DNA of 64,000 bases from Litorilinea aerophila (GTDB lineage: Bacteria > Chloroflexota > Anaerolineae > Caldilineales > Caldilineaceae), in assembly GCA_945897075.1 (NCBI GenBank), contig CAMDEX010000001.1, positions 1 through 64,000 on the forward strand, in the 5' to 3' direction. Of this stretch, positions 4,584 through 59,583 are shown piece after piece. Position 1 is the stretch's first letter, and every line of letters starts with the position of its first letter. Under the pieces are notes generated by a model. It searched no databases. It was not told the origin of the DNA and saw only the letters and a list, made by a program, of their open reading frames with translations. Made by a program: the position numbers and the translations under genes.

Positions 4584-5711
<1,128 letters not shown>

Positions 5712-5714
5712 AGA

Positions 5715-5780
5715 AAGTAATCAGTAATCAGTTATCAGCCGAACTCGATGATTACTGTTCACTGTTCACTGTTCACTGAT
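5715..5780. repeat. Inverted heptamer arrays downstream of moaA
   Basis: AATCAGT-type units are followed by TGTTCAC-type units (three perfect copies of GTTCACT). The two halves are partly complementary (TAATCAG... and ...GATTACTG). This is a period-7 hairpin in the gap between moaA and the A-type carrier gene. Confidence 0.75.
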
Positions 5781-18681: not shown

Positions 18682-18700
18682 ACGTGCCCAAACAGGGCCA

Positions 18701-18824
18701 GCGCCGGTTGAGTAGGCTGGGGCTTTTTCCAGTCGTATCGAAACCAAGCGGATAGGATGAGCAGCCTTCACACCCGTTCGCTTGATTTCGCTACGCCTCG
18801 AAGACTCGGCTACTCAATCAGCGC
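18701..18824. repeat. MITE-like element, copy A
   Basis: The element has terminal inverted repeats GCGCCGGTTGAGTAGGC and GGCTACTCAATCAGCGC (two mismatches). Its inner part holds CCCGTTCGCTTGATTTCG, shared with copies at 25563-25730 and 31163-31285. There is no coding content, and the size of about 125 bp fits a non-autonomous mobile element or a large REP/BIME unit. It lies inside the formate dehydrogenase gene set. Confidence 0.75.
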
Positions 18825-18905
18825 TCACTGATCCGGCCGATCTGCGTAGTCACATTTGACATTGGGCATTTCTTGGAAATTGAACTGAACGTTCAGGAGT
18901 ATCGA

Positions 18906-25538: not shown

Positions 25539-25562
25539 GCGCACAACAACGATTGAGGACTA

Positions 25563-25730
25563 GCGCCGGTTGAGTAGGCGGGTGTTGTTTCCCGCCGTAT
25601 CGAAACCTTTAGATTGATCCTATCGAAATCCAGCGGGTCAGCGCTTTTATGCGCCCCACCCGTTCGCTTGATTTCGATACGCCTCGCAGACGCAGAATCC
25701 TTCGGATTCTGACGGCTACTCAATCAGCGC
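25563..25730. repeat. MITE-like element, copy B
   Basis: This is the longest copy (168 bp). Terminal inverted repeats GCGCCGGTTGAGTAGGC and GGCTACTCAATCAGCGC match copy A. The inside holds CCCGTTCGCTTGATTTCGAT and a small hairpin AGAATCCTTCGGATTCT. TTTCACG/CTTCACG heptamers follow at about 25777-25797. Confidence 0.8.
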
Positions 25731-25835
25731 TCACTGGACTCGACTCATTTAATTGCGTGAGATCGCCGAATACTTTCACGCTTCACGCTTCACGTTTCAA
25801 AGAATCAAATTTCCTCCTTTCCAGGAGTTTTGTCC

Positions 25836-31136: not shown

Positions 31137-31162
31137 ACGGTTGATTGGGCGGGGATCAGTGA

Positions 31163-31285
31163 GCGCTGATTGAGCGGTGTCCTGAGCCTGTCGAAGGGTA
31201 ACCGTCAGAATCCTTCGGATTCTGCGTCTGCGAGGCGTATCGAAATCGAGCGAACGGGTCTACCTGTTTGGTTTCGAGCGGCGAC
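31163..31285. repeat. MITE-like element, copy C (inverted)
   Basis: On the minus strand this copy has CCCGTTCGCTCGATTTCGAT, AGAATCCGAAGGATTCT and the end CTCAATCAGCGCTCACTG. It replaces the inner end with GACAGGCTCAGGACA, a segment also found in coding sequence at 39888-39911. One terminal repeat is degenerate. Confidence 0.7.
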
Positions 31286-44361: not shown

Positions 44362-45003
44362 ATGAAATTCCAAGAACTTCTGACAATTGCCGGTGATGAA
44401 CCGCTGATCGAATCGTCGCTTCTCTTGGCCGGGGATGCGCAGCCGGGCGATGTGCAGCGCCAACTCTCCCGCTGGCGCGCTGCAAAACTGCTGCACCAAC
44501 TGCGCCGCGGGCTATACGTGCTGGCCGAACCCTATCGCAAGACGACGCCGCACCTCTTCGCCACCGCCAATCTGCTGCAACGCCCCTCGTATGTAAGCTG
44601 CCAGAGCGCGCTGGCCTGGTATGGGCTGATCCCCGAATATGTGCCGTGGGTGGTCAGCGTCACCAACGCACGCGCGGGCGAGCGGCGGACGGAGTTGGGA
44701 AATTTCATCTACCGTCATCTGAAGGGCGATCTGTTCTGGGGGTATCACTCTGTGGAAGTGGCGACGGGGCAAACGGCTTTCATCGCAAAACCGGAAAAAG
44801 CGCTTCTCGATCTGATCTATTTGCAGCCGGGCGGGGATGACGAAAAATACCTGGCAGAGTTGCGTCTGCAAAACTGGGAAGGGTTGGATTTGGCGATTTT
44901 GGCAGAAATGGCAGAAAAGAGCGGGTCGGCCAAATTGCAACGTGCGGCGCGGCGAATCACAAATTTGGCAAACAACGCAGCGGATTTCTACGAAGCCCTA
45001 TGA
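44362..45003 (+). CDS. AbiEi-like antitoxin/regulator, orphan
   Basis: This 213-residue protein has an N-terminal winged helix (VQRQLSRWRAAKLLHQLRRGLYVL) and a C-terminal AbiEi-type domain with SCQSALAWYGLIPE and AKPEKALLDLIYLQ. AbiEi proteins repress and counter the nucleotidyltransferase toxin AbiEii. No AbiEii gene follows; the next gene is a YfhO-like protein whose ATG overlaps this stop (ATGA). It may have become a regulator of the glycan genes, which is inference. Confidence 0.78.
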   Translation: MKFQELLTIAGDEPLIESSLLLAGDAQPGDVQRQLSRWRAAKLLHQLRRGLYVLAEPYRKTTPHLFATANLLQRPSYVSCQSALAWYGLIPEYVPWVVSVTNARAGERRTELGNFIYRHLKGDLFWGYHSVEVATGQTAFIAKPEKALLDLIYLQPGGDDEKYLAELRLQNWEGLDLAILAEMAEKSGSAKLQRAARRITNLANNAADFYEAL

Positions 45004-47297
45004 AAGCCAATCCACGATCCTTTTGGCCCTTTGCCGTCTATCTCCTCCTATCCGCCCTCTTTTACGCGCCCATCCTTCTCGGCCTGCGCACCTTCCCCGA
45101 CGGCGACTTTACCCACCACTTCCTGCCTTTCAGCCTCTTCCAGCAGAGCGAATGGCTGGCCGGACGCTGGCTGCCGGTCTGGAATCCCTATACCTACGGC
45201 GGTCATCCCTTTCTGGCCGACGTGCAGACTGCGCTCTTTTATCCCGTCGGCGATCTGCTCCTTCTGCTCACGCTGCCCTTCACCAGCCCCGCCGCCCGTC
45301 TCTACTTTCTGCAGGTGGAGGCGGTGCTGCACATCGCGCTGGCCGGTTTTTTCACCCATCTGCTCGTCCAGCGTTTGACTGGCAGCCGCCAGGCCGCTTT
45401 TACCGCCGGCGCGTTCTTCGCCCTCTCCGGCTACCTGACCGGTTATCCACCCCTGCAAATGGCTATTTTGCGCACGGCCATTTGGCTGCCGCTGATCTTC
45501 TGGCTGCTGCTGCGCGCTGTAGATGAACCGTCCCGCTGGCGCTGGTGGATTGGCGCATCTGCGGCCTGGGCCACGGCCTTCCTGGCCGGACACCCGCAGA
45601 CATTTCTGCATCTGAGCTACGCGGTCGGCGGGTGGATGGGGCTGCTGCTAGTGGCAGGTGGCAGGTGGCAGGTGGCAGGTGGCAGGTGGCAGGTGGCAGG
45701 TGGCAGATGGCAGGTGGCAGGTGGCGACGAAATGGTGACATCCCAATCAACCGTTCAACCAATCAACCGCTTGTTCGGCTTTCTGGTTGTTGGAATCCTC
45801 ACTGCCGCCTTCTCCGCCGTCCAACTCCTGCCCAGCCTGGAATTCGCCCGCCTGAGCGTGCGCGCCAGCGTGGACTACGCCTACGTCAGCGGCGGCTTCC
45901 CCATCCAGGACACCTGGCAACTGCTCTTTCCCGCCATCCTCACCCAATTCTCGCCCCTGTACATCGGCATCCCCGGCCTTTTCCTGGCGCTGCTCGGCCT
46001 TTCCCAATTGCGTTCCATTCACAATTCGCAATTCACCATTCACCATTCACTATTCTTCCCCCTCCTCGCCCTCCTCGCCCTCCTCCTCTCCTTCGGCGCA
46101 CACAGCTTTCTCTACCCCCTCTTCTACCGCTACGCGCCGGGCTGGAATTTTTTCCGAGGACAAGAGCGGGCGGCCTATCTGGTCAGCTTTGGGCTGAGCG
46201 TGCTGGCGGGCTACGGGATGGCCGCCTTGCCGGGTTTGCCCTGGCGTGCGCGACGTCTGGCAGGCGGCGCGTTGGTGGGCTGTCTGGCCGCTGGCGGGCT
46301 GATCTTCGGCCTCATCTGGCAGGCGGCGGGCCGGGGCGCGCTGCCGGATGAGAGGTATTGGTTGGTGGTGAGTTTTTCCCTGCTGGTGGGTGTAGCAGTG
46401 GCCTGGCTGCTCTGGGAAAAAGAGTGGCAGCCTCGACGCGGCTGGGCGTTGACCGCGCTGGGGGTGGCAGTCCTGTTCTGGGCCAACGGGGGGACGAATG
46501 TGGACGATTTTGGTCCGGCGCGCAAGACGCTGCTTGCGCCGGAAGTGGCCGCGACGCAGGCCGCGTTGGGCGACGGGCGCGTCTACAACGAATACCGGGT
46601 CTACGAGGATTACGGCATGTCTATCGGCGCGCAGGATGTGTGGGGCAGCAGTCCGTTGCGGCTGGCGCGCTACGCCGCACTCTTCGACAACTTCCCGCTG
46701 GACCGGATGTGGCGGCTGTTGGGGGTGGAGACGGTTCTCACCTGGCGACAGGGGCTTCCGGTCTCGTCTACGCTCCTGGCCGAATTTCCCCAAGCGACGG
46801 ACACGACATTCCTGCACCGGCTGGTCGAAGCCAATCCCCGCGCCTGGCTGGTACAGGATGTCCAGTTCGTTGACGACGCCACCGCCCTGCCCCTCCTGGC
46901 CGACCACAACTTCGATCTCTCACACACGGCCCTCCTCCCGCCCGACGCCGCTTCCTCCCTTCCTCCCTTCCTCCCTTCCTCCCTTCCTCCCTTTATTCAG
47001 TTTGATCGCCCCGCGCCCAGCCGTCTGCGCGTCACCCTTTCCGACAACCCCGGCGGTCTGCTCGTCATCAGTGAAAACTGGCTGCCGGGTTGGCGGGTGG
47101 ATTCCCCAATCCCCAATCCCCAATCCCCGTTCCCCGTTCTGCGCGCCAACCTCACCCTCCTCGCCCTCCCCATCCCGCCGGGCGATCTGGCCTTCGATCT
47201 GGTCTACTGGCCCGCTTCTCTGAACTGGGGTCTTGCCATCACTGGCGGCGCGCTGCTGGTTGTGGTCGTTGGGTTTTTCTATCGTAGGGCGGACTGA
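45000..47297 (+). CDS. YfhO-like membrane protein carrying four repeat insertions
   Basis: This 765-residue protein has a polytopic core typical of YfhO/GT-C proteins (residues about 1-500: FPDGDFTHHFLPFSLFQQ, WNPYTYGGHPFLADVQTALFYP) and a C-terminal extracytoplasmic part with SENWLPGWRV. In YfhO relatives this class supports glycosylation of teichoic acids or lipids. Four separate tandem arrays interrupt the protein in frame: (VAGGRWQ)n near residue 220, IHNSQFTIHHSLF near 340, [14 protein letters not shown] near 655 and SPIPNPQSPFPV near 702. All lie in loops or at helix ends. The last residues YRRAD come from a palindromic repeat. One-unit changes in an array would break the frame. Confidence 0.8.
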   Translation: MKANPRSFWPFAVYLLLSALFYAPILLGLRTFPDGDFTHHFLPFSLFQQSEWLAGRWLPVWNPYTYGGHPFLADVQTALFYPVGDLLLLLTLPFTSPAARLYFLQVEAVLHIALAGFFTHLLVQRLTGSRQAAFTAGAFFALSGYLTGYPPLQMAILRTAIWLPLIFWLLLRAVDEPSRWRWWIGASAAWATAFLAGHPQTFLHLSYAVGGWMGLLLVAGGRWQVAGGRWQVAGGRWQVAGGDEMVTSQSTVQPINRLFGFLVVGILTAAFSAVQLLPSLEFARLSVRASVDYAYVSGGFPIQDTWQLLFPAILTQFSPLYIGIPGLFLALLGLSQLRSIHNSQFTIHHSLFFPLLALLALLLSFGAHSFLYPLFYRYAPGWNFFRGQERAAYLVSFGLSVLAGYGMAALPGLPWRARRLAGGALVGCLAAGGLIFGLIWQAAGRGALPDERYWLVVSFSLLVGVAVAWLLWEKEWQPRRGWALTALGVAVLFWANGGTNVDDFGPARKTLLAPEVAATQAALGDGRVYNEYRVYEDYGMSIGAQDVWGSSPLRLARYAALFDNFPLDRMWRLLGVETVLTWRQGLPVSSTLLAEFPQATDTTFLHRLVEANPRAWLVQDVQFVDDATALPLLADHNFDLSHTALLPPDAASSLPPFLPSSLPPFIQFDRPAPSRLRVTLSDNPGGLLVISENWLPGWRVDSPIPNPQSPFPVLRANLTLLALPIPPGDLAFDLVYWPASLNWGLAITGGALLVVVVGFFYRRAD
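45651..45727. repeat. (GTGGCAG)10 array inside the YfhO-like gene
   Basis: Eight perfect GTGGCAG units, one ATGGCAG, one more perfect unit and a degenerate GTGGCGA give ten units in 70 bp. The translation repeats every seven residues (GRWQVAG). Near-identical units are the best substrate for slippage in this window. Confidence 0.95.
46015..46056. repeat. CNATTCA heptamer array inside the YfhO-like gene
   Basis: Six degenerate heptamers (CCATTCA, CAATTCG, CAATTCA, CCATTCA, CCATTCA, CTATTCT) lie in frame. The same unit family occurs in the gene at 57.7 kb (58715-58770). Confidence 0.9.
46951..46994. repeat. CTTCCTCC octamer array inside the YfhO-like gene
   Basis: About five CTTCCTCC units in frame code for [14 protein letters not shown]. 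The unit matches the arms of the intergenic palindromes at 1.05 and 28.25 kb. The period here is 8 bp. Confidence 0.9.
47103..47135. repeat. CCCCAAT array inside the YfhO-like gene
   Basis: Three CCCCAAT units and two CCCCGTT units in frame code for SPIPNPQSPFPV. The same peptide PNPQSP appears in CopA and at the aminotransferase C-terminus because the DNA unit is the same. Confidence 0.9.
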
Positions 47298-47335
47298 CAG
47301 TCCGCGTTACGCGGGGCGGACTGTCAGTCCGCCCT
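47282..47335. repeat. GTAGGGCGGACTG palindrome
   Basis: GTAGGGCGGACTGACAGTCC and GGACTGTCAGTCCGCCCTAC are long complementary arms. The left arm contains the last codons and stop of the YfhO-like gene. It probably folds in the mRNA and may end the transcript. Confidence 0.85.
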
Positions 47336-47376
47336 ACAAATTTCGTAAAGGTGGGGATGTGTGGTATACGAAAAGG

Positions 47377-47862
47377 ATGAACGCGTTGAGAAATCAATCT
47401 GAAATGACTCACCACCCATTGAACAAAAGCCGCTGGCTTCTGCTGTTGCTACTCGTAGCCGCGGCGGCTGTGTCCACCGCGCTAACCACCAACCTGGGCG
47501 CGTATGCCCACGACGCCGCGGCCGAACACATTCCACGCGGCTTGCTCTTCTCCGCTGCGATTGCCGACGGTAATTTTTTCCCCGCCTGGACACAGTTTCT
47601 GCATGTGGGGCTGGGCAGCCCGCTCTTTACTTTTCAGCCGCCCCTGCCCTATTATGGCATGGACCTCTTGGCGCGCCTGGGGTTGGCCCACCCGTTGGGC
47701 TGGCGGGTGCTGCTCGGCGGGGGATTGCTGGTGGCCTTTCTGGGCGCGTTCGCGCTGGTGCATTTGGCAACGGGCAGACGTTGGGCAGGCTTAGCCACCG
47801 CAGCCTCGCCCGACATCTCAAACCGGCTCCGTATCGGCGTCTATGATGGCAGCGACCAATAA
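47377..47862 (+). pseudogene. 5' fragment of a PTPS-related membrane protein gene
   Basis: The first 140 residues or so are nearly identical to the start of the intact protein at 52724 (shared block LNKSRWLLLLLLVAA, AEHIPRGLLFSAAIADGNF, FTFQPPLPYYG). After GRRWAGLATAA the match ends abruptly near 47800, and the frame continues for about 17 unrelated codons to a stop. The full-length copies have about 780 residues. The nucleotide sequence before the break is also almost the same as 52.73-53.13 kb, so the copy is recent. Recombination or insertion of the following segment cut it. Confidence 0.85.
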
Positions 47863-47865
47863 TTC

Positions 47866-50196
47866 GTGCCAGTCATCGCTGATGATACAGTGCGCAACTA
47901 CACACCTATCAGGCTGAGGTCACGATTCGTGATACAGGAACTTGCAGTGAAGACACAACGCGTGTGGCGTCGGATGGAAGGTTGGCGCGGCTTTCGGCTG
48001 ACGGTGCCGTGGCTTGTCTTCGCCCTGTTGCTCCTGTGGGGCTGGCGTGTAGGGAACCCGGCGCACAACCTGCCTGCCTACGGTGATGTACTGGAAGTTG
48101 TCTGGATCACTGACTGGTATGATGGGGTTGTGCGTGGCACACATTCTGCTTCTTCCTACCCATTGATCTTCTACCCGGCGGGCTGGCGCGTTGCTACCTA
48201 TGCAGGCGGCCCAACGCTCTTGTTGGCATTGCTGCCATTAAATTGGCTGGGTGGCCCTGCGTTTGCCTATAATGTAGCGACAATATTAACGCTGGCGCTT
48301 TCATTTGCCGGGATGCAAACCGTGGTGCGTAGGGAGGTTGATGTACTGCCGGCGACCGTTGCCGCGCTGCTCTATACTTTTTGGGGCTTTCATTGGTTCC
48401 GCATCGCCGGTCATATGAATGTATTGATTGCGACCAGTCTGCTGCCGTGGTTGCTGTGGAGCCTGGAACGGTCGGTCGCGCCGACGCGACACTCCGTGGC
48501 CTGGTCGGCGCTGGCCGGTCTAGTGTGGATGCTCATGATTCTCAGTTCATGGTATTTTCTGTTTATGGGTGCCATGCTGTTGGGCGGATGGTGGCTGGCG
48601 CGACAAGCATCCCTTCTTAAAGCAGATAGAGACAAATTCTTTTCCACCGTGTCCATTCGCAGACTGTTAATCCCGACTGTAGTCGCCTTGCTGCCCTGTA
48701 TCCCGTTTCTTCTCTTCTTTGTGTATGAGAGCAACGCCGCGCAGGCGGCCTATTACGACATTACACATGTTGCATTGTGGGATGCCAGCCTGAATAGTTT
48801 TCCAATACCCAACGTTGCCCATCCGTGGTTAGCAGGCCTATCCAGCGTCATCTACCAGGGGCCAACGAACGAACCAGGCCAGGCCAACTTTGGATTTTTG
48901 GCTTTCCTGATGGCGGTGTTGGCGATCCGGCCGGCGTTGCGCGACCGACGCTGGTGGCCGGCATTGATGCTCACCGGCATCGGACTAGCCCTGAGCCTAG
49001 GGCTGACCCTGAAATGGAACGGCCAGGTTATCCAGTGGGAAGCGTTACGCGGCCTGGATACAATCCTGTGGCGGCTTGGGTATCTGCTCAAACCCGATTT
49101 TTTCACTGCGCCGCATCCAATATCGCCATTCGACACGGCAGTTCCGTTGCCGGGGCTATTGCTCAGTAGCCTCGTGCCGTTCTGGGAGCGAGCGCGGGTC
49201 TTTGCACGTTATGCGTTGCTGGCCAGCGTTGGCCTCTATTCACTTACAGCATTGAGTCTGGCACAGGTACGCTATGGTTGGGTGCGGGGGCTATTGGCCC
49301 TGCTGCTAGTCATCGAGTTGCTTCCACCGCCTACGGATAGCGTACCGTTTCCACCTGTCGAACACCCCGCCTTTGCCTGGTTGCGTCAACACGGCACTCC
49401 TGAGCAGGGTATCGTGGATTTAGATGCGTGGCAGCCAGACCGGCTCTACTTGCCCAACCGCGGGCAGACGCTGCTGGCGACGGAGTACCATCAGCAGCCG
49501 ACTGTGGCAGGGGCTGGCAGTATTCTGCCCGCGCACGTAGCATTTCTGGATCAATGGTTAGCGACACATCCGCATCCTTTCACCGACTCATCATTCGCTC
49601 CGTTGTGGCGCTATATCGGTGTACGCTATATCATTTTTCATGTTTCAGGTAGTTATGCACAAGTACTGTTGCGTGAGGCCGCACAGAATCCCGATTTGCA
49701 GAATCGCGGCTGCTTCGATCCGCCGCCAGGACGTAATCCATGGTCATATCCGATCTGCATCCTGGAGGTGACAACCTGGCCAACTCCCAGCTTCAACGTC
49801 CTGACATCGGAGGGGTGGTCGGGTACGGAGGAATGGGGCCGTTGGATAGAAGGAACGTCTGGCAGTGGTGTCTGGATGGCGGCGCGACGCGTGTCGTATC
49901 GCCTCAAAATCGAAGCTTTCCCGGTTTGCGATGCCAATCGCCCCCAACGAATAGTGGTGGAGGTCAATGGGGCAACAGTGGCGACTCACACATGGGATGA
50001 CTGTGAGTCGTGGTTGGCGGAGATCGCTCTGTCTGCGCAACAAATCACCATTGGCTGGAATGAATTGACGCTCCGTTCAGCCTATGCTGCGCGACCGGTG
50101 GATATCACCGATGGAAGCAATAGTGATACCCGCTGGCTATCGGTAGGTTTAACCAGACTGGAAATTACGCCAATTCTTCACCCTCCTTCGAATTGA
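47866..50196 (+). CDS. Polytopic membrane glycosyltransferase-like protein
   Basis: This protein of up to 776 residues has about ten membrane helices in the first 470 residues and a soluble C-terminal part (about 480-776) with cysteines in NRGCFDPP and PVCDANRP. The loop VVWITDWYDGVVRGTH is the likely active-site loop of a GT-C fold. It has no close paralogue in the window. Its codon use is visibly less GC-rich than its neighbours (many GTT, ATA and CTA codons), a sign of a different origin. GTG 47866, GTG 47947 or ATG 47974 may be the start; no site is decisive. It lies just behind the break in the truncated gene. Confidence 0.65.
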   Translation: MPVIADDTVRNYTPIRLRSRFVIQELAVKTQRVWRRMEGWRGFRLTVPWLVFALLLLWGWRVGNPAHNLPAYGDVLEVVWITDWYDGVVRGTHSASSYPLIFYPAGWRVATYAGGPTLLLALLPLNWLGGPAFAYNVATILTLALSFAGMQTVVRREVDVLPATVAALLYTFWGFHWFRIAGHMNVLIATSLLPWLLWSLERSVAPTRHSVAWSALAGLVWMLMILSSWYFLFMGAMLLGGWWLARQASLLKADRDKFFSTVSIRRLLIPTVVALLPCIPFLLFFVYESNAAQAAYYDITHVALWDASLNSFPIPNVAHPWLAGLSSVIYQGPTNEPGQANFGFLAFLMAVLAIRPALRDRRWWPALMLTGIGLALSLGLTLKWNGQVIQWEALRGLDTILWRLGYLLKPDFFTAPHPISPFDTAVPLPGLLLSSLVPFWERARVFARYALLASVGLYSLTALSLAQVRYGWVRGLLALLLVIELLPPPTDSVPFPPVEHPAFAWLRQHGTPEQGIVDLDAWQPDRLYLPNRGQTLLATEYHQQPTVAGAGSILPAHVAFLDQWLATHPHPFTDSSFAPLWRYIGVRYIIFHVSGSYAQVLLREAAQNPDLQNRGCFDPPPGRNPWSYPICILEVTTWPTPSFNVLTSEGWSGTEEWGRWIEGTSGSGVWMAARRVSYRLKIEAFPVCDANRPQRIVVEVNGATVATHTWDDCESWLAEIALSAQQITIGWNELTLRSAYAARPVDITDGSNSDTRWLSVGLTRLEITPILHPPSN

Positions 50197-50283
50197 TACC
50201 CTCCACCACTTTCAATGAAAAAGAAAAAGCGATAATCCGAAGATTTCAGCACGAACCCGTGTAAACTCAATGTTTGACAGTGC

Positions 50284-52710
50284 ATGAAATTCAGTGATGG
50301 CAACCAACTCTCTTATACAATTGTCGACAAGGATACTAAATTGTCAGGTCAACTACCGCCGTCTGCGGCCAAGTACAGATGGCTGACGGGGGCGAACAGC
50401 CGTTGGTTTCTGCTATTCGTCTTGGTGTCGGCGGCCGCCGTCTCCACGGCTATCACCATCAATCTGGGCGCATATGCCCACGATGCTGCATCCGCACACG
50501 TGCCCCGTGGCTTCATCTTCTCCGCTGCCATCTCTGATGGATTCTTGCAACCCCGCTGGGTGCAATTCCTCCATATAGGCTTGGGTAGTCCGCTCTTTAC
50601 TTTTCAGCCCTCACGTCCTTATTACGGGATGGACATCCTGGCCCGTCTGGGCCTGGCCCATCCGTTGGGTTGGAGGGTGTTGATCGGCGGCGGTCTGCTG
50701 GCCGCCTTTCTGGGCACATTCTACCTGGTTCGCCTGGCAACAGATCGATCCTGGCCTGCTCTGGCTGCTGCCGCCGCCTATCTTTACGCTCCTTATATGC
50801 TACACAATGCTCTGGTGCGGGGGTCCAACGAAGTCTTTGGCATGTTTCTCTACCCCTGGGTGCTGTGGGGACTGCTGTGGTTAGCCCAATCACCGAGTGG
50901 AAGACGCTTTGTGGTCGCTACGCTGATTTGGGCTGCCAGTATCGGAATGCACGTGCTGGCTCCGCTGATGCTGGCACCGATAGCATTGTTGACGGCGTTC
51001 ATCGCTGGTTGGCGCTGGCGCACACCCGCGCCGTTGTTGGTATTGCTTGTGGGTGGCCTGTTGATGAGTCCCGTCTGGCTGCCCATCCTGGAGGAACAGA
51101 GTTACGTTCAGATCGAGCGTGACTTCGACAGCCCGGCAGCGATTCCTTTAGATAACCCGATTCCCCTAGACCGCCTGTTGGCCCCACCAACAGTCTACGA
51201 TATCCAGCGCGACAATAACAGCATGGGCGACCGTATCGGACTTCTGCACACTCTTTTGTTGCTCCTCGGTCTGCCAGGTACTCTCGTGGCCTTCCGGCAA
51301 CGTCGCCGGGCTTTGGGTGTGACGATTGGACTGGCGACAGTGTTTGGATTGGTGTTCCTGTGGCTTCTCACAGCTTCTTCGGATCTGATCTGGCAACTGT
51401 TTGATCCACTATTGCATAGAGTACAATATCGGATGCGCTTGATGGGGATACAGGCCCTTGTGGTATCCATTGGGATCGGCGGATTGGCTGCTCTAGTCGC
51501 AACGCGCTGGCAGAAACTGCTTGGTCTGGTTCTGACTCTGCTGTTCCTACTGCTTGGGATCCCTGCGCTCTATGTGAATCTGCAACACCGTATTGGCAGT
51601 TTTGACGGGGTAATCACGTTTGACTACGTGCGGGCCATCGAATGGCAGACATCGGGTGCCGGCTTGACATCGTACGGGGAATTTCTCCCCTTCTGGCGGA
51701 GACAGATCTTTAACGACGCGATCCTGGCCGAGTTGGGCCAGGACTTCGACCCGGAGGCGCGCCCCCTGGCTCACCCCCCGGCAGGGGTACGCGTACTGGA
51801 CGCCCACGTCACATCCAGTTCCTGGGCGCTGGATTTGGAGAGCGCGCAACCTGCAACCGTCACGCTCTACCTGCTCTACTATCCCCGCTGGCAGGCGCTT
51901 CTGGACGGCGCGCCGGTTGCAATTCATCCAGAGGCAGAGACGGGGTATGTGCAACTGGAGCTGCCCGCAGGCCGCCACAATCTGATTCTCCACTACGGGC
52001 ACAGTACATTGCAGAGGATAGGCACCGGGATCAGCCTATTGATTGCTCTGAGCCTGCTCGTTCTGGCGATCCGGGGGAAAAGGCCAGGCGAGAGTGTTGC
52101 CGCTGTTGAATCTGCTGCGAAAGGGGTGTGGGAAGCCGCGCCGCCACTCTGGTTGCTGGTGGGACTGGCCCTTTTTTTGGGGAGCAAATGGGCGGTGATC
52201 GACCCGTATACAACGATTTTTCGCTGCCAATCCACCGTGGAACGGGTCTGCGGCGTAGATGCAACGGTGGATGTGGCCTTTGTCGGCGCTCCCAGCTTGC
52301 GGGGGTATACACTCGGCGACAATCGGTTCCGCCCTGGCGGGACGGCGCAGGTCGTTCTCTTTTGGGAAGGAGAGAGCGATAGCCTCCCGATGCTCAAGAA
52401 TTTTGTCCACATCCGCAACAGCCAGCCGGACCAACTGATCAACCCCCGCACCGGCAGCGACATCTGGGCGCAAGAGGATCACTTGACGCCCGGCGGTCTG
52501 TTTTTGCGCGATTTCTCGCCTGGGCGACTCTATCAGGACGAATTCCGCGTGGCGCTGCCTGCGGATATGCCACCGGGGGAATACTTTCTGGAAGTCGGTT
52601 GGTTCAACCCAGAGACCGGGGAACAGACTGAGCCGGTTGACGAGTCACTGATGCCGCCGCTGCGCGAGTTGTGGCGTTCGGTCCTGCTGCCCTCCATTAC
52701 AGTAGAATAG
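50284..52710 (+). CDS. PTPS-related membrane protein (paralogue 1)
   Basis: This 808-residue protein belongs to the 6-pyruvoyl-tetrahydropterin-synthase-related membrane family, which despite its name is GT-C-like. It begins with a helix then SAAAVSTAITINLGAYAHDA, shared with the truncated copy and the 52724 protein. The membrane core covers about residues 40-440, then a middle soluble part (EFLPFWRR), then a beta-sandwich C-terminal domain (FVHIRNSQPDQ...MPPGEYFLEVGWFNPETG). It is homologous to the next gene over its whole length, but the nucleotide sequence has diverged much more than the truncated copy has. It probably takes part in surface glycan synthesis. Confidence 0.75.
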   Translation: MKFSDGNQLSYTIVDKDTKLSGQLPPSAAKYRWLTGANSRWFLLFVLVSAAAVSTAITINLGAYAHDAASAHVPRGFIFSAAISDGFLQPRWVQFLHIGLGSPLFTFQPSRPYYGMDILARLGLAHPLGWRVLIGGGLLAAFLGTFYLVRLATDRSWPALAAAAAYLYAPYMLHNALVRGSNEVFGMFLYPWVLWGLLWLAQSPSGRRFVVATLIWAASIGMHVLAPLMLAPIALLTAFIAGWRWRTPAPLLVLLVGGLLMSPVWLPILEEQSYVQIERDFDSPAAIPLDNPIPLDRLLAPPTVYDIQRDNNSMGDRIGLLHTLLLLLGLPGTLVAFRQRRRALGVTIGLATVFGLVFLWLLTASSDLIWQLFDPLLHRVQYRMRLMGIQALVVSIGIGGLAALVATRWQKLLGLVLTLLFLLLGIPALYVNLQHRIGSFDGVITFDYVRAIEWQTSGAGLTSYGEFLPFWRRQIFNDAILAELGQDFDPEARPLAHPPAGVRVLDAHVTSSSWALDLESAQPATVTLYLLYYPRWQALLDGAPVAIHPEAETGYVQLELPAGRHNLILHYGHSTLQRIGTGISLLIALSLLVLAIRGKRPGESVAAVESAAKGVWEAAPPLWLLVGLALFLGSKWAVIDPYTTIFRCQSTVERVCGVDATVDVAFVGAPSLRGYTLGDNRFRPGGTAQVVLFWEGESDSLPMLKNFVHIRNSQPDQLINPRTGSDIWAQEDHLTPGGLFLRDFSPGRLYQDEFRVALPADMPPGEYFLEVGWFNPETGEQTEPVDESLMPPLRELWRSVLLPSITVE

Positions 52711-52723
52711 AAATGGAATCGAA

Positions 52724-55060
52724 ATGTCCTCCCATCTATTGAACAAAAGCCGCTGGCTTCTGCTCTTGCTACTCGTAGCCGCGGTAGCTGTGTCCACCGC
52801 GCTGACCACCAATCTGGGCGCGTATGCCCACGACGCTGCGGCCGAACACATCCCGCGCGGCCTCCTCTTCTCCGCCGCGATTGCCGACGGCAATTTCTAT
52901 CCCGCCTGGACACAATTTCTGCATGTGGGGCTGGGCAGCCCGCTCTTTACCTTTCAGCCGCCCCTGCCCTACTACGGCCTGGATTTCTTGGCGCGCCTGG
53001 GGTTGGCCCACCCGTTGGGCTGGCGGGCGCTGATTGGCGGGGGGTTGCTGGTGGCCTTTCTGGGAGCGTTCGCGCTGGCCCACTTGGCAACGGGCAGACG
53101 CTGGGCCGCCCTGGCCGCGGCCACGGCCTATCTCTATGCGCCCTACGTGCTGCGCAATGCGCTGGAACGCGGCTCCAACGAAGCCTTTGGGATGTTTCTC
53201 TATCCCTGGGTGTTGTGGGGTCTGCTGCGTCTGGCCCAATCCCCCTCGGCGGGCCGCTTCGTTGTGGCCGCGCTGATCTGGGCAGCCAGTATCGGTATGC
53301 ACGTGTTGGCCCCGTTGATGCTGGCCCCGGTGGCCCTGCTGGTAGCCGTCATCACCGGCTGGCGTTGGCGCACCCCCGCGCCGCTGCTGGCGCTGCTCGT
53401 CGGCGGCCTGCTGATGAGCTTTCTCTGGCTGCCACTGCTGGAGGAGCAGAGTTATGTGCATATTGAACAGAATTTCAGCGATGCCACAGCGATCCCGCTG
53501 AACAACCCAATTCCCCTGGAAAACCTGCTGGCCTTGCCCGCAGTCTATGACACCCAGCGCGAGAACAACGGCGTGGGCGACCGCATCGGTCTGCTCCACA
53601 CGCTGCTCCTGCTGCTGGCGGTGCCCGCCGCGCTCTACGCCCTCCGCCAGCGACGTTATGGCCTGGCGTTGACGCTGGGGCTGGCGACAGCGGTTGGGCT
53701 GACTCTTTTTTGGCTTTTTATGGAGTCGTCCAATCCGGTTTGGCAATTGTTCGACCCGCTCCTGCACCGGGTGCAATACCGCACGCGTCTGATGGGTGTG
53801 CAGGCGCTGGCCGCGTCGGTGGCCGTGGGCGGGATGGTGGCGTTGGCGTCCGTGCGCCGGGAAAAAGTGATCGCCTTGATCCTCAGCGCGCTGCTTCTCC
53901 TCATTGCCCTTCCCTCGCTACACGTAGACCTGCAACACCGCTTTGGCAGCTTTGCGGACAGCATCACCCGCGCGGATGTGCGCGCTATCGAATGGCAGGG
54001 ATCGGGCACGGCCCTGACCGCCTTCGGGGAATTCCTGCCCCGCTGGCGCGAGAAACCTTTCGACGACGCTCTGCTGGCCGAGTTGGGCCACGATTTCGAT
54101 CCCCAAGCACGCCCCCTGGCCCAGCCACCCGCGCATGTACGCGTCCTCTCCGCCCAGGTCACGTCCAGCGACTGGGCCTTGCATCTGGAGAGCAGCCAGG
54201 CAGAAACAATCACCCTATACCTGTTATACTATCCCCATTGGCGCGCATTTCTGGATGAGACACCGCTGGCGATCCGTCCGCAAGCGGAGACGGGCTACGT
54301 TCAGTTCGATCTGCCCGCGGGCAACCACCGCCTGGTGTTACGCTACAGCCGCGGCCCGCTACAGTGGGCCGGTTTGGCCGTCAGCGGGGTGATCGCTCTG
54401 CTTCTGCTGCTCGTGGGAATCGGTGGGATGTGGCGAGGGCGCTTTTATCAGAGTGGGGCGCGCAGCCTGCCCATCGCACAGGAAGCCGCGCCATCTGTCT
54501 GGCTTTTGCTGGGGTTGGCGCTCTTTCTGGGGCTGAAGTGGACGGTCATTGACCCGTCTACAACCCTTTTCCGCTGCCAGTCTACAGCCGAGCGGGTCTG
54601 CGGCGCGGGTGCGACGGTAGATGTGGCCTTTGCCGGCGCTCCCAGTCTGGTTGGTTATACAATTGGCAACAACCAGGCCCGGCCCGGCGAAAGCGTGTAC
54701 GTCGCTCTCTTTTGGGAAGGGCAGGCCGACAGCCTCCCGCTGCTCAAGAGTTTCGTTCACATCCGCAACAGCCAACCGGAGCAGACGGTCAATCCCCGCA
54801 CGGGCAGCGACATCTGGGCGCAGGAGGATCACGTGACGCCGGGCGGTCTGCCTCTGCGGGAGTTCTCGCCCGGACGGCTTTACCGGGACGAGTTTCGCAT
54901 CGTGCTGCCGGCAGATATGCCACCGGGGGAATACTTCCTGGAAGTGGGCTGGTTCAACCCCGAAACCGGCGAGCAACTCGACCCGTTGGATGAAACGATG
55001 CAGCCACCCTTGCGTGAATTGTGGCGCTCGGTGCTGCTGCCCTCAATCACTGTGGAGTAG
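52724..55060 (+). CDS. PTPS-related membrane protein (paralogue 2)
   Basis: This 778-residue intact member of the same family starts 13 bp after paralogue 1. The order of parts is the same: N-terminal helix, AHDAAAEHIPRGLLFS, core with ERGSNEAFGMFLYPWVLWGLL, middle soluble part, and the C-terminal beta domain with SFVHIRNSQPEQ and PPGEYFLEVGWFNPETG. It is more GC-rich than paralogue 1 and fits the surrounding genome, so it looks like the resident copy. Its first 400 bp match the truncated gene at 47.4 kb. Confidence 0.78.
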   Translation: MSSHLLNKSRWLLLLLLVAAVAVSTALTTNLGAYAHDAAAEHIPRGLLFSAAIADGNFYPAWTQFLHVGLGSPLFTFQPPLPYYGLDFLARLGLAHPLGWRALIGGGLLVAFLGAFALAHLATGRRWAALAAATAYLYAPYVLRNALERGSNEAFGMFLYPWVLWGLLRLAQSPSAGRFVVAALIWAASIGMHVLAPLMLAPVALLVAVITGWRWRTPAPLLALLVGGLLMSFLWLPLLEEQSYVHIEQNFSDATAIPLNNPIPLENLLALPAVYDTQRENNGVGDRIGLLHTLLLLLAVPAALYALRQRRYGLALTLGLATAVGLTLFWLFMESSNPVWQLFDPLLHRVQYRTRLMGVQALAASVAVGGMVALASVRREKVIALILSALLLLIALPSLHVDLQHRFGSFADSITRADVRAIEWQGSGTALTAFGEFLPRWREKPFDDALLAELGHDFDPQARPLAQPPAHVRVLSAQVTSSDWALHLESSQAETITLYLLYYPHWRAFLDETPLAIRPQAETGYVQFDLPAGNHRLVLRYSRGPLQWAGLAVSGVIALLLLLVGIGGMWRGRFYQSGARSLPIAQEAAPSVWLLLGLALFLGLKWTVIDPSTTLFRCQSTAERVCGAGATVDVAFAGAPSLVGYTIGNNQARPGESVYVALFWEGQADSLPLLKSFVHIRNSQPEQTVNPRTGSDIWAQEDHVTPGGLPLREFSPGRLYRDEFRIVLPADMPPGEYFLEVGWFNPETGEQLDPLDETMQPPLRELWRSVLLPSITVE

Positions 55061-55072
55061 AATTTTAGCCCT

Positions 55073-57586
55073 ATGGCCTATCCCGCATCAACTTCCCCGC
55101 AAAATCAGCCGCTCGATCTACTCCGTCAGGAGCGGCGGTTGGCCGTCGCCATCTTCTTTCTGGCGCTGGCCGTCTATACGCTGACATACGTGGGCGCGTT
55201 CAAGAGCAACGACGAGCGCGCGCTTTTCAGCGGGATGGACAGCTTTGTCAAACGGGGCAGCTTTACCGTCAACCAGATTTTTTGGGATTACACAAACGTG
55301 GCGATGATCACCGATCGCGGCGAGATGGTGCCCAACTACGAGCCGGGCCAGATGGTGCTGGCGATTCCCTTCTATCTGTGGGGGCGGGCGTTGGGCGGGG
55401 CTGTGCAGGGGACGCTCTTTTTCAATCTTGTCGTCACGGCGGCGTCGGCGGCGCTGGTCTATCTCTGCTTTCTGGAGTTGGGCTACCGGCGGCGGGTTGC
55501 CCTGTTGGGCTGTTGTGTCTACGCCTTTGCGACACTGGCCTGGCCCTACAGCCGCACCTTCTTTCGTGAGCCATTGACCGTCCTCACCTATCTGCTGGCC
55601 GTCTACGGGCTGCTGCGCTACCGGCCACCCGGCCCGCGACGGATGGGCTGGCTGGCGCTGACCGGCACGGCGTTGGGGCTGGCGCTGGTCACGAAGCAGA
55701 TCAGTGTGGCGCTGATCCCCTCGCTGCTGCTTCTGCTCTTTGCTTACGAACGCCAGCGCCCGGCCGATCCGGGTTCCAGCTTGGCCCGCCAACGGCTAAA
55801 CGCGGCCCTGGCCCTTCTGCTGCCCCTGGCCCTGATTCTGCTTCTGGAACGGGTCTATCACCAGGCCACACTGGGGGGTGTCGAGCTTTTCTCGCGCAAT
55901 ATCATCGAGTACACCACCAACCCCCAGCTCTCCCAATCCATCCCCGCGCGGATGCTGCGCGGGCTGCTTGGCCTCTCCATCAGCCCCTACAAAGGACTCT
56001 TCTGGTATGCGCCCGCGCTGCTGCTGGGATTGATCGGCGCGCTGCCTTTCACGCGTCGCTTCCCCTGGGAGGGGCTGGCCTTTTTGCTGCTGGTGGCCGG
56101 CCACTTCCTGGGCTACAGCCGCTACAACTACTGGTCGGGCGGCGTGGCCTGGGGGTCGCGCTATATGCTGCCCGTCATCCCTTTCCTCATCCTGCTGGCC
56201 GCGCCAGTTTTCGCCTGGCTGCTCGCCGATCCGCCTTCTCACGCTTCACGTTTCACGTTTCACGCTTCACGCTTCACGTTTCACGCTCCACGTTTCACGT
56301 CTCACGTTTCACGTTTCACGTTTCACGTTTCACGTTTCGCTATTTGGCTGCTCATCGCCCTCAGCCTCTTCATCCAAATTCTGGGCGTCAGCCTGGATTT
56401 GCGGACCTACGAGTTGTCTTTTCTGCTCGACAACGCCGCAATTTGGGGCGGCATTGGCGAGGCCATCGACGCGCTCTATCTGCAACCGGCCTATTCGCCG
56501 GTGTTGGGCCATTGGCGTCTGCTGCTCTCGGGAACGCTGCCGCTCGATTTCGCCTGGGTGCAGCTACGCGAGATGGGCGGCTGGGCGCTGCTCCCGCTGG
56601 GGCTGCTGATTTCGTTGCTCTTTCTGGCCGTCAATCTGGCCGCGTGCGTGTGGCTCTGGCGGCAACCGCAACGGACGGCTCTGTTCGGGCTGGGGTTGTC
56701 GGCGCTTTTTGTCGTAACCGGCTCTGTGCTCCTGGGCCTCTACCGCCAGGGCGACGCCCGCTTCGATCCCTACGGGGTGGATCGCTTTCTGCGGCCAATG
56801 ATTGAGCGATTGGAGACGGTTGATTGTGGCTGGCGTGGCTGCGACGAAGTGGTGATCGTGCCTGACCCGACGCTGACCGATTATTTCCTCAATTATATGA
56901 GCGCACCGCTGGTCTGGTATGCCGTTGAGAGTGAGCCGGTGGAAAGCGAACTGCTCGAACAACTCAGCCGCCGCTATGCCCGTATCTGGCTGGTGCGGGA
57001 TCGCAACGCGGCGACCGACGACGCAGAAAACCGTCGAGGGGTGGAGCGCTATCTGACCGAACACGCGTATAAAGCGGACGAGGAACGCATGGACGAGTGG
57101 GCCAGATTGCTGCGTTTTTCCGCGGCGGGCACAGCGCAGACGCAGATGGAAACGGCGCACGTTCTGGGCGATATGCAATTGGCGCAGATTTCGATTGGAA
57201 TCGAGCAACCGGCGCACACATCCTCTGTTGACGCGGCGGTGAGCGTTCAGCCGGGCGACACCCTGCAAATCGGTCTGCGCTGGCAGGCAAAGCAGACGCA
57301 GGCAGGCAACTACACCGTCTTTATCCAACTGTTGAACGCCAGCGGCCAGGTTGTCGCGCAGCGGGATCGCTGGCCGGGGGACGGTTTTTTCCCCACCGCC
57401 GCGTTGCAGGCGGGCCAAATCATCACCGACAACCTGGCCCTGCCGCTGCCGTCCGATCTGTCGCCCGGCAGCTACCGGTTAATCGGCGGTCTCTATCGCG
57501 GCGATGTGGAAGGCTATCCCCGGCTGGTCGGCCCTAACGGCGATTTTGTCCTCTTGGCTGAGATTGAAGTGGCATCAGAGCAATAA
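55073..57586 (+). CDS. GT-C type membrane glycosyltransferase with heptamer insertion
   Basis: This 837-residue protein has a GT39/GT83-like membrane core (YVGAFKSNDERALFSGMDSFVKRG gives the acidic catalytic loop; residues about 20-560) and a C-terminal beta-sandwich (about 715-835, DTLQIGLRWQAKQ...YTVFIQLLNASG). Between two helices, near residues 388-424, SHASRFTFHASRF and further copies are coded by a 14-unit TTTCACG array. The insert is rich in Arg, Phe and His and is absent from the fold. It starts 12 bp after the preceding stop and is probably part of the same operon. Confidence 0.78.
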   Translation: MAYPASTSPQNQPLDLLRQERRLAVAIFFLALAVYTLTYVGAFKSNDERALFSGMDSFVKRGSFTVNQIFWDYTNVAMITDRGEMVPNYEPGQMVLAIPFYLWGRALGGAVQGTLFFNLVVTAASAALVYLCFLELGYRRRVALLGCCVYAFATLAWPYSRTFFREPLTVLTYLLAVYGLLRYRPPGPRRMGWLALTGTALGLALVTKQISVALIPSLLLLLFAYERQRPADPGSSLARQRLNAALALLLPLALILLLERVYHQATLGGVELFSRNIIEYTTNPQLSQSIPARMLRGLLGLSISPYKGLFWYAPALLLGLIGALPFTRRFPWEGLAFLLLVAGHFLGYSRYNYWSGGVAWGSRYMLPVIPFLILLAAPVFAWLLADPPSHASRFTFHASRFTFHAPRFTSHVSRFTFHVSRFAIWLLIALSLFIQILGVSLDLRTYELSFLLDNAAIWGGIGEAIDALYLQPAYSPVLGHWRLLLSGTLPLDFAWVQLREMGGWALLPLGLLISLLFLAVNLAACVWLWRQPQRTALFGLGLSALFVVTGSVLLGLYRQGDARFDPYGVDRFLRPMIERLETVDCGWRGCDEVVIVPDPTLTDYFLNYMSAPLVWYAVESEPVESELLEQLSRRYARIWLVRDRNAATDDAENRRGVERYLTEHAYKADEERMDEWARLLRFSAAGTAQTQMETAHVLGDMQLAQISIGIEQPAHTSSVDAAVSVQPGDTLQIGLRWQAKQTQAGNYTVFIQLLNASGQVVAQRDRWPGDGFFPTAALQAGQIITDNLALPLPSDLSPGSYRLIGGLYRGDVEGYPRLVGPNGDFVLLAEIEVASEQ
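56237..56334. repeat. (TTTCACG)14 array inside the glycosyltransferase gene
   Basis: Fourteen consecutive heptamers (TTTCACG with variants CTTCACG, TCTCACG, CTCCACG) cover 98 bp. The peptide repeats every seven residues (SRFTFHA). The same unit occurs outside genes at 57.64-57.69 kb and 25.78 kb. Confidence 0.95.
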
Positions 57587-57602: not shown

Positions 57603-57742
57603 CCAGAAACCTGAAACGTAAAACGTGAGACTACCGGCACGCATTTCACGTCTCACGTCTCACGTCTCACGCCTCACGTTTCACGCCTCACGAATTCGAT
57701 AATCGGCTATGCGCCAATACGCAATACGCAATACGCAATACG
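57603..57742. repeat. TCTCACG and CAATACG arrays around the start of the next gene
   Basis: An inverted pair of ACGTGAG and TCTCACG-type heptamers (57612-57693) is followed by four CAATACG units (57715-57742). The second array begins six bases after the A of ATG 57709 and codes for QYAIRNTQYAI. Confidence 0.85.
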
Positions 57743-59583
57743 CAATCGTCTTTCTCGCCTTTGCCCTCCGCCTCTTCCGGCTGGCCTTCCAGGAACTGCG
57801 CGGGGACGAGGCTTTCGGTTATTTCTTCAGCCTGCGTACCTACGACGATATCATCGCTACTACCCTTTCTCTGCGCGAACCGCATCCGGTGGGCAGCTAC
57901 TTTTTGCAACATCTCTGGCTGGGCTGGGCGGGCCACTCGGAATTTGCCCTGCGTTTTGTCAGCGTCTGGTGCGGCGTACTGGCCGTAGCCCTGCTCTACC
58001 GGCTGGCGCGCCGTCTGCAACTCTCCCCGGCCACCGCGTCCACCGGCGCATTCCTGCTCGCTGTCAGCCCCTACGCCATCTGGCACAGCCAGGATGCGCG
58101 CATGTACTCGATCCTCCTGGCCCTGACACTGGCGAGTACGTGGCTGATGGTGGAGGCGTTGCAGCGAGGGCGCTGGCAGGTCTGGTTACTTTATGTCGGG
58201 GTAAGCTGGCTGGCCCTGCACACCCATTACTTCGCCATTTTCGTGTTGGCGGCTCAGAATTGTTTTGTGCTGGGCCGGGCACTGCTGATGCCCCGCGTCC
58301 GTTTTGGCGCGGTTCAGTGGGTGCAGTGGCAATTTGTCCTGGGATTTTTTTACCTGCCCTGGCTCTTTACTGCGGGCGAGACCCTGACCGGCTACGGCGG
58401 CAACGGGGATTCGCCCAGCTTCTGGTGGATGGCGCAGCGCTCCCTGGCCGTCTTTGCCGCAGGGGAGAGTATCCCGGCGGGATGGCGCACGCCGGTCGCT
58501 CTCGGCGCGGGGCTTCTGCTCCTTCTCGGCATCACTCATCTCTGGCGGACAGGTGGCAGTAGACGGCGCACCCTCTTTCTGCTCCTCCTGCTGTGGGCTG
58601 TGCCTGTGTTGGCGACGTGGGCCAGCAGCCAGAGCCGCCCCCTCTTCAACGAGCGCTATCTCATCGCGGCCGCGCCCCCTTTCTACCTGCTCCTGGCCGT
58701 CGCCCTCACTTCTGCAATTCGCAATTCACAATTCACTATTCACTATTTACGATTCACCATTCGCTATTTCTTTCCCCTTCTCTTGGGATCGCTCCTTCTT
58801 CTCTCTCTCTCCAACCACTTCACCAACCCCGCCTATTCCAAAACCCGCGGCTGGCGGGAACTGGCTGTCTCCTTTGCGCGATTTTCCGCCGGTCTGCCGC
58901 CGGAACAGGTGCGTCTGGCGCAAAATCTGCCCGAACCGACGCTCTGGTATTACTACAGCGGCCCGCTGGAGCATATCGTCTTGCCGCCCCAGGCCCACGA
59001 TGCAGAGGGGGCAAACGCGGCCGTGACACAACTGGTGGCGGAGGGTGTGACGCGGGTCATTCATCCCGTCCAAGCTGCCGCCACCTGGGATGATGCGGGC
59101 ATTGCCCAGGCTGCCCTGGCAAAGGAGTACGCGTTGGCCGCCCGTCTGTCTGTGGGCGTCTGGCCCGTGGAAATCTACAGCCGTGTGGGTGGGTACACGC
59201 CTCTTTCTGTTGCCTTTGCCAACGGCGTGCAACTGAACGGCGCGGCCCTGCAACCGGAGCGTCTCATCCCCGGCGCACTGCTGGTGGTCCATCTGCTCTG
59301 GGACGGAGAACGCGCCCAATTGAGCGGCAGCGAGAAAGTCTTTTTGCATCTATTGGATGGCAGCGGGCAGATCGTCGGTCAGACCGATGTGCCGTTCGTG
59401 GCGGAGAGGGGAGCGGGTGAAGCCGCGGCGTATGGTATACTGCTTCCAGACACTTTGCCCGCCGGCCCCTATCGTGCGATCGCCGGGTTGTATGATCCGG
59501 CGCTACCCGGTGCGCCGCGTATCGCGACGACGGCAGGCGCTGATTTTGTGGGGTTGGGTGTGCTGGAGGGACGGATGGAATGA
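57709..59583 (+). CDS. GT-C type membrane glycosyltransferase with repeats at N-terminus and core
   Basis: This 624-residue PMT-like protein has FQELRGDEAFGYFF as its first extracytoplasmic loop with the Asp-Glu pair of the family, and WHSQDARMYSI, typical of GT39/GT83 relatives. The membrane core covers about residues 10-370, followed by a soluble part and a beta-sandwich C-terminal domain (about 500-620). The start codon lies next to four CAATACG units and has no ribosome site that I can see, so expression may depend on that array. A second array (58715-58770) codes for AIRNSQFTIHYLRF in a loop between helices. Confidence 0.75.
   Translation: MRQYAIRNTQYAIVFLAFALRLFRLAFQELRGDEAFGYFFSLRTYDDIIATTLSLREPHPVGSYFLQHLWLGWAGHSEFALRFVSVWCGVLAVALLYRLARRLQLSPATASTGAFLLAVSPYAIWHSQDARMYSILLALTLASTWLMVEALQRGRWQVWLLYVGVSWLALHTHYFAIFVLAAQNCFVLGRALLMPRVRFGAVQWVQWQFVLGFFYLPWLFTAGETLTGYGGNGDSPSFWWMAQRSLAVFAAGESIPAGWRTPVALGAGLLLLLGITHLWRTGGSRRRTLFLLLLLWAVPVLATWASSQSRPLFNERYLIAAAPPFYLLLAVALTSAIRNSQFTIHYLRFTIRYFFPLLLGSLLLLSLSNHFTNPAYSKTRGWRELAVSFARFSAGLPPEQVRLAQNLPEPTLWYYYSGPLEHIVLPPQAHDAEGANAAVTQLVAEGVTRVIHPVQAAATWDDAGIAQAALAKEYALAARLSVGVWPVEIYSRVGGYTPLSVAFANGVQLNGAALQPERLIPGALLVVHLLWDGERAQLSGSEKVFLHLLDGSGQIVGQTDVPFVAERGAGEAAAYGILLPDTLPAGPYRAIAGLYDPALPGAPRIATTAGADFVGLGVLEGRME
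58715..58770. repeat. CNATTCA heptamer array inside the glycosyltransferase gene
   Basis: Eight degenerate heptamers (CAATTCG, CAATTCA, CAATTCA, CTATTCA, CTATTTA, CGATTCA, CCATTCG, CTATTTC) fill 56 bp in frame. The unit is the same as in the YfhO-like gene at 46.0 kb. Confidence 0.9.

Follow-up and report, generated by a model that had tools for sequence, protein, structure and literature searches.

When capsule or O-antigen genes are swapped, the composition of the block differs inside, and the genes outside are conserved. The capsule locus of Klebsiella, for example, is called highly exchangeable (PMC13043062). Single events of natural transformation leave discontinuous patches of donor sequence (PMC13344027). 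Homology-facilitated illegitimate integration is likewise described in bacteria (PMC3240628).

Here, a locus from an uncultured Chloroflexota lineage is set beside these systems. Two of its genes, X and B, probably came from a lineage near that of a relative in the same genus (G002, below). Together (~47.8-52.3 kb, with a further patch at 52.40-52.56 kb), they would have replaced the body of one of two tandem copies of a third gene, C, by homologous recombination.

The window and its genes

The window, which is the whole stretch of 64,000 nucleotides that was analysed, comes from a draft Chloroflexota MAG (G000; 397 contigs, 8.77% contamination). Two relatives from the same genus were compared with it. 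One is Caldilineaceae bacterium CHL15 (G002; JAHDWH010000031); the other is a groundwater Chloroflexi MAG (G003). The gene order in G000 is YfhO-A-X-B-C-PMT837-PMT624, with the following features.

45000-47297, forward strand: YfhO-family membrane protein (Pfam YfhO, 4e-8), the left anchor of the site.
47389-47786, forward strand: A, a truncated 5' copy of C of ~128 codons, apparently recipient-derived (90% identical to 52709-53106).
47787-47830, no strand: left junction zone seen in alignments, with CAGCCTCGCCC common to the G002 stub.
47866-50196, forward strand: X, 776 amino acids, a predicted GT-C-fold membrane glycosyltransferase (AlphaFold model, fold matches), probably donor-derived.
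50284-52261, forward strand: body of B, a C-family paralogue, probably donor-derived (dS to B' of G002 0.20; tree).
52262-52710, forward strand: 3' end of B, a recombination mosaic (informative sites, dS, maximum chi-square).
52709-52723, no strand: right junction, found by eye, where the stop of B is fused to C's own upstream sequence (TAGAAATGGAATCGAAATG); AGAA serves there as a short microhomology.
52724-55060, forward strand: C, an intact membrane protein of 778 amino acids, weakly AftD/PTPS-related-like, resident (83% identical to C of G003).
55073-57586, forward strand: PMT837, a PMT-family glycosyltransferase (Pfam PMT, 1.5e-9), by synteny the right neighbour in G000, G002 and G003.
57709-59583, forward strand: PMT624, a PMT-family gene, by synteny the right anchor of the site.

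The GTG start codon of X is uncertain. B as an entire gene (50284-52710, 808 amino acids) is a full C-family paralogue, and its protein is 70% identical to that of C.

Several kinds of repeat were also observed. Heptanucleotide repeats lie in frame inside coding sequence, GTGGCAG in YfhO (45651-45727) and TTTCACG in PMT837 (56240-56341). They encode seven-residue repeats, and many similar stretches occur across the genome. A dispersed repeat of ~140 bp is found at 18693-18845, 25558-25740 and 31148-31277; it recurs dozens of times in G002 and G003. A palindromic intergenic stretch (47284-47337, GGGCGGACTG...CAGTCCGCCC) lies 5' of A and also 5' of C in G003. In appearance, this stretch is a palindromic element of the dispersed kind.

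Arrangements in related genomes

The segment at 47.8-52.7 kb, whose presence or absence in relatives had been proposed as a check, is missing in G003. There, YfhO, C and PMT837 are joined directly, without X or B; the contig ends inside YfhO and inside PMT837, with both junctions of C intact. More widely, among 11 loci of the family, from seven genera, PMT624 comes immediately after YfhO in 10; in the eleventh, the contig starts too near the site for the order to be read.

In G002, the order is YfhO-C'-decayed 5' stub-X'-B'-PMT837'. This stub is broken at the same codon as A, and it is ~70% identical to A and to C. It also carries (locus L037, reverse-complement ~5640-5760) an insertion of ~110 bp with the palindrome CTCCCCCACTGTGGGGGAG, and its reading frame is lost.

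Of 46 genomes from the order, 3 have the X family; the version at 89% is found only in G000 and G002. The B genes of these two form a clade with support of 98/100 in the tree. The distant genome Prado095 (L056) has X followed by two C-family genes, which means that the gene neighbourhood itself is old; both of its C-family copies fall outside the B/C split, with moderate support. In several other Chloroflexota (L057, L058, L061, L062), including two Thermoflexus MAGs, members of the X family occur as head-to-tail tandem pairs.

The two seams

A first-pass annotation of this DNA held that the 5' end of C recurs almost unchanged upstream, that the recurring copy breaks off, and that another paralogue and a further gene lie between the two. 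The recurrence is indeed found at 47389-47786, but "almost unchanged" is somewhat too strong. Nucleotide identity to 52709-53106 is 90% (E 1.3e-151), and an ungapped comparison of A with C from the start codon gives 346 identical positions in 384, with a longest exact run of 42 bp. C-family sequence does end near codon 130 of A; the open frame then adds ~18 codons of unrelated sequence before it stops at 47862. The genes between are X and B, and B matches the same query at 72%.

Along its full length, A is nearer to C than to any other copy, and A and C are closer to one another than either is to the C gene of G003. The 100 bp 5' of A align with the sequence upstream of that G003 gene. A, together with its upstream sequence, is to judge from these alignments the recipient's own. 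At ~47787-47830, the sequence switches to that preceding X' in G002, where the G002 stub ends, and from ~47830 onward it is donor-like. The left boundary thus coincides with the end of the C-family 5' homology. A left crossover inside the stub near 47593, where the BLAST alignment with G002 starts, was considered and rejected; compared column by column, A is C-like to ~47786.

The right seam is more intricate. Here, with the C gene of G003 representing the recipient's C family, B is B'-like at 506 of the 552 informative sites up to 52262. Beyond that point, the ratio of B'-like to G003-C-like sites is 5:30 (52262-52400), then 32:9 (52400-52560), then 10:18 (52560-52710). The tail of B is, in other words, a recipient-like patch, a donor-like patch and a second recipient-like patch, with dS to B' of 1.35, 0.18 and 1.56, respectively. 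The maximum chi-square method places a breakpoint near 52262, and the observed value was not attained in any of 5000 shuffles.

The right boundary falls inside the 3' end of B, which is homologous to that of C. Fusion of the B stop to the sequence upstream of C, via AGAA, is at the sequence level consistent with a former tandem C1-C2 junction. The tail of B' in G002 also resembles that genome's own C', which makes later gene conversion an alternative source of the mosaic. If B and C have exchanged sequence in this way, the 3' mosaic could be younger than the original crossover.

Composition and divergence

Lower GC and a different choice of codons had been ascribed to the genes between the two copies. 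The GC content of X (0.563) and of B (0.583) is lower, as claimed. GC3 is 0.606 in X and 0.660 in B, against 0.768 in YfhO, 0.770 in C, 0.761 in PMT837 and mostly 0.71-0.80 among neighbours. X differs clearly in codon choice, B only weakly. The codon-usage distance to other genes of the window is raised for X (0.194) and within range for B (0.132); it is 0.06-0.16 in 14 of 15 reference genes, the exception being the gene at 44362 (0.231). The shift in composition starts at ~47.8 kb and fades by ~52.3 kb. In G002, too, the GC3 of X' and B' (0.67 and 0.63) is slightly below that of their neighbours (0.69-0.73), so composition alone does not name the donor.

X and B are 88.9% and 90.1% identical in nucleotides between G000 and G002, against ~74% for the flanks; the X proteins share 89% of their amino acids. 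Synonymous divergence, on which selection on the protein has less effect, gives the same picture. For X, dS to G002 is 0.24 [0.20-0.29], and for the body of B it is 0.20 [0.16-0.25]. In the flanking genes, it is 0.89 (YfhO), 1.00 (C) and 0.70 (PMT837), and other orthologues in the window give 0.52-0.96; long ORFs with dN above dS were left out of this set as non-coding frames. The values for X and B lie below even the dS between G000 and G003 (0.33-0.58). This means that X-B came to be shared by the lineages of G000 and G002 after G000 and G003 had split.

Between A and C, dS is 0.30 [0.18-0.44]. This is similar to the divergence of X and B from G002, which puts the 5' duplication and the block's arrival at about the same age. 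The stub of G002 is decayed and old, and A is young and still in frame. This favours a G002-like donor and G000 as the recipient. G002 itself may not be the donor, as a third source could have supplied X-B to both lineages.

How the block may have entered

The first-pass annotation saw here a cassette that entered, or was duplicated, through the shared 5' end. Entry through a shared gene end is largely right, with X-B present in G002 at 89-90% and the left junction at the end of the 5' homology. That account overlooked the mosaic right boundary in the 3' end of B, as well as the stub of G002 with the same breakpoint.

The proposed exchange, which accounts for the data most economically, would begin with a tandem duplication of C in the recipient. 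Incoming donor DNA, carrying a 5' stub, X and B, would then pair with the first copy of C, at the shared 5' end and where the 3' ends of B and C are homologous. Through a double crossover, the body of this first copy would give way to X-B; A would be left as a 5' stub, and the second copy, C, would stay intact. The tandem C1-C2 state was not seen among the genomes compared; the similarity of A to C and the B-C junction point to it. The genome encodes ComEC, which makes natural transformation a possible route.

In the main rival account, no prior tandem C would be needed, the DNA having entered by a single crossover (Campbell-type), or by homology-facilitated illegitimate integration, at the shared 5' end, with microhomology serving at the other. 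A duplicated 5' end beside the insert is the expected product of such an integration, and the B-C junction is a precise fusion with AGAA-type microhomology alone. We nevertheless regard this route as unlikely. It requires a donor whose 5' end differs by ~10% from that of the recipient, and the one stub known, in G002, is far more distant than this from A and C (~70% identity). By itself, it also leaves the recipient-like tail of B unexplained.

Very little probability attaches to an ancient vertical arrangement, in which an ancestor had stub-X-B together with C, G003 lost X-B, and nothing was recently transferred. X with two C-family genes in distant Prado095 speaks for such an ancestry. Yet dS to G002 is about one quarter to one third as large in X-B as in the flanking genes, the duplication that gave A and C is younger than the split from G003, and most of the order lacks X.

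The 5' repeat might instead have led the assembler to join two genomes, by misassembly or as a strain chimera. The structure in G000 is known from an assembly, and the MAG is a draft with contamination as given above. The copies, however, differ by 10%, with no exact run above 42 bp, and an assembler that works with full reads or long k-mers should keep them apart. The independent assembly of G002 has the same stub-to-X junction, the reading frames are intact, and a mosaic right end suits recombination better than a false join. Such an artefact is, accordingly, highly improbable.

A mobile element that brought X-B, be it a transposon, an integrative element or a phage, would suit the patchy distribution of X and the shifted composition, but it deserves hardly any credence, as the boundaries of the segment coincide with homologous gene ends, no inverted repeats were found at 44-57 kb, no transposase or integrase is evident in the segment (X and B being its sole genes), X was not found in plasmids, and viral contigs gave only weak partial matches to its last ~120 residues.

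It is conceivable, though doubtful, that the YfhO-PMT624 interval is a recurrent site of exchange in this family, at which C-family paralogues provide built-in homology arms and no dedicated recombinase is used. The two layers (C-PMT837, then X-B) and the two placements of stub-X-B, in G000 and in G002, suit this idea.

Predicted functions

The AlphaFold model of X has a pLDDT of 85. Every one of its 22 best fold matches is a GT-C enzyme or a complex that includes such an enzyme, although the TM-scores are low (0.36-0.40, query-normalised, at 10-15% sequence identity). Foldseek gives AftD at E 3.8e-8 and ArnT at E 1.2e-5, with AglB also among the top matches. By its model, X has the GT-C membrane fold, and transferase activity is predicted. 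A candidate catalytic residue, D74, is invariant in 12 members of the family. No solved structure matches X by sequence.

In B and C, matches to AftD and PTPS_related stay below the thresholds. C scores 25.3 bits with Pfam GT-C_AftD, where the cut-off is 26, and X scores 10.6 bits with PTPS_related, where it is 26.4. The label "PTPS-related", attached to C at first sight, keeps a weak basis, the best Pfam E among C-family members being 0.0029, with none above the curated cut-off. PTPS_related (PF10131) appears at E <= 1 in 4 of 6 C-family members, and it is not listed for C itself. A search of NCBIfam assigned none of X, B, C and YfhO to a family. A structural model of C was set aside as evidence of fold, its pLDDT of 49 being too poor, and no fold is claimed for B or C.

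The neighbourhood includes YfhO, DUF2079, DUF2142, PMT, a GT2 enzyme and an aminotransferase of the LegC/PseC type, which points to a glycan that is lipid-linked or on the cell surface. The products of X, B, C and the PMT genes would be GT-C-type enzymes that act on such a glycan. With such a role, the exchange would add steps to the glycan, or alter it.

Comparison with known systems

What the locus offers is a dated glycosyltransferase exchange, resolved at its boundaries, between species in a lineage of uncultured Chloroflexota. One can see the order that lacks the block, its probable context in the donor and the recombination seams. It illustrates that foreign genes can use duplicated ones as landing sites, and it suggests that glycan variation in the Caldilineaceae be sought in the YfhO-PMT624 interval. 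Should the interval prove to be a recurrent site, glycosyltransferase modules would be captured there and swapped between species, much in the manner of cassettes.

The exchange of X-B is an event of a known kind. As in capsule and O-antigen exchange, a block of putative glycan genes has been swapped between related lineages. Unlike in that exchange, the homology lies in the paralogous ends of the exchanged genes themselves, rather than in conserved flanking genes, a truncated paralogue is left behind, and the organism is uncultured. As in the mosaics made by natural transformation (PMC13344027), donor and recipient patches alternate at the edge of the segment; unlike those, the patches in B may reflect later gene conversion. 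Finally, X as modelled resembles AftD, ArnT and AglB/PglB in having a multi-pass membrane domain and a C-terminal part rich in beta structure. It differs from them in that the matches have low TM-scores and slight sequence identity, and no family could be assigned.
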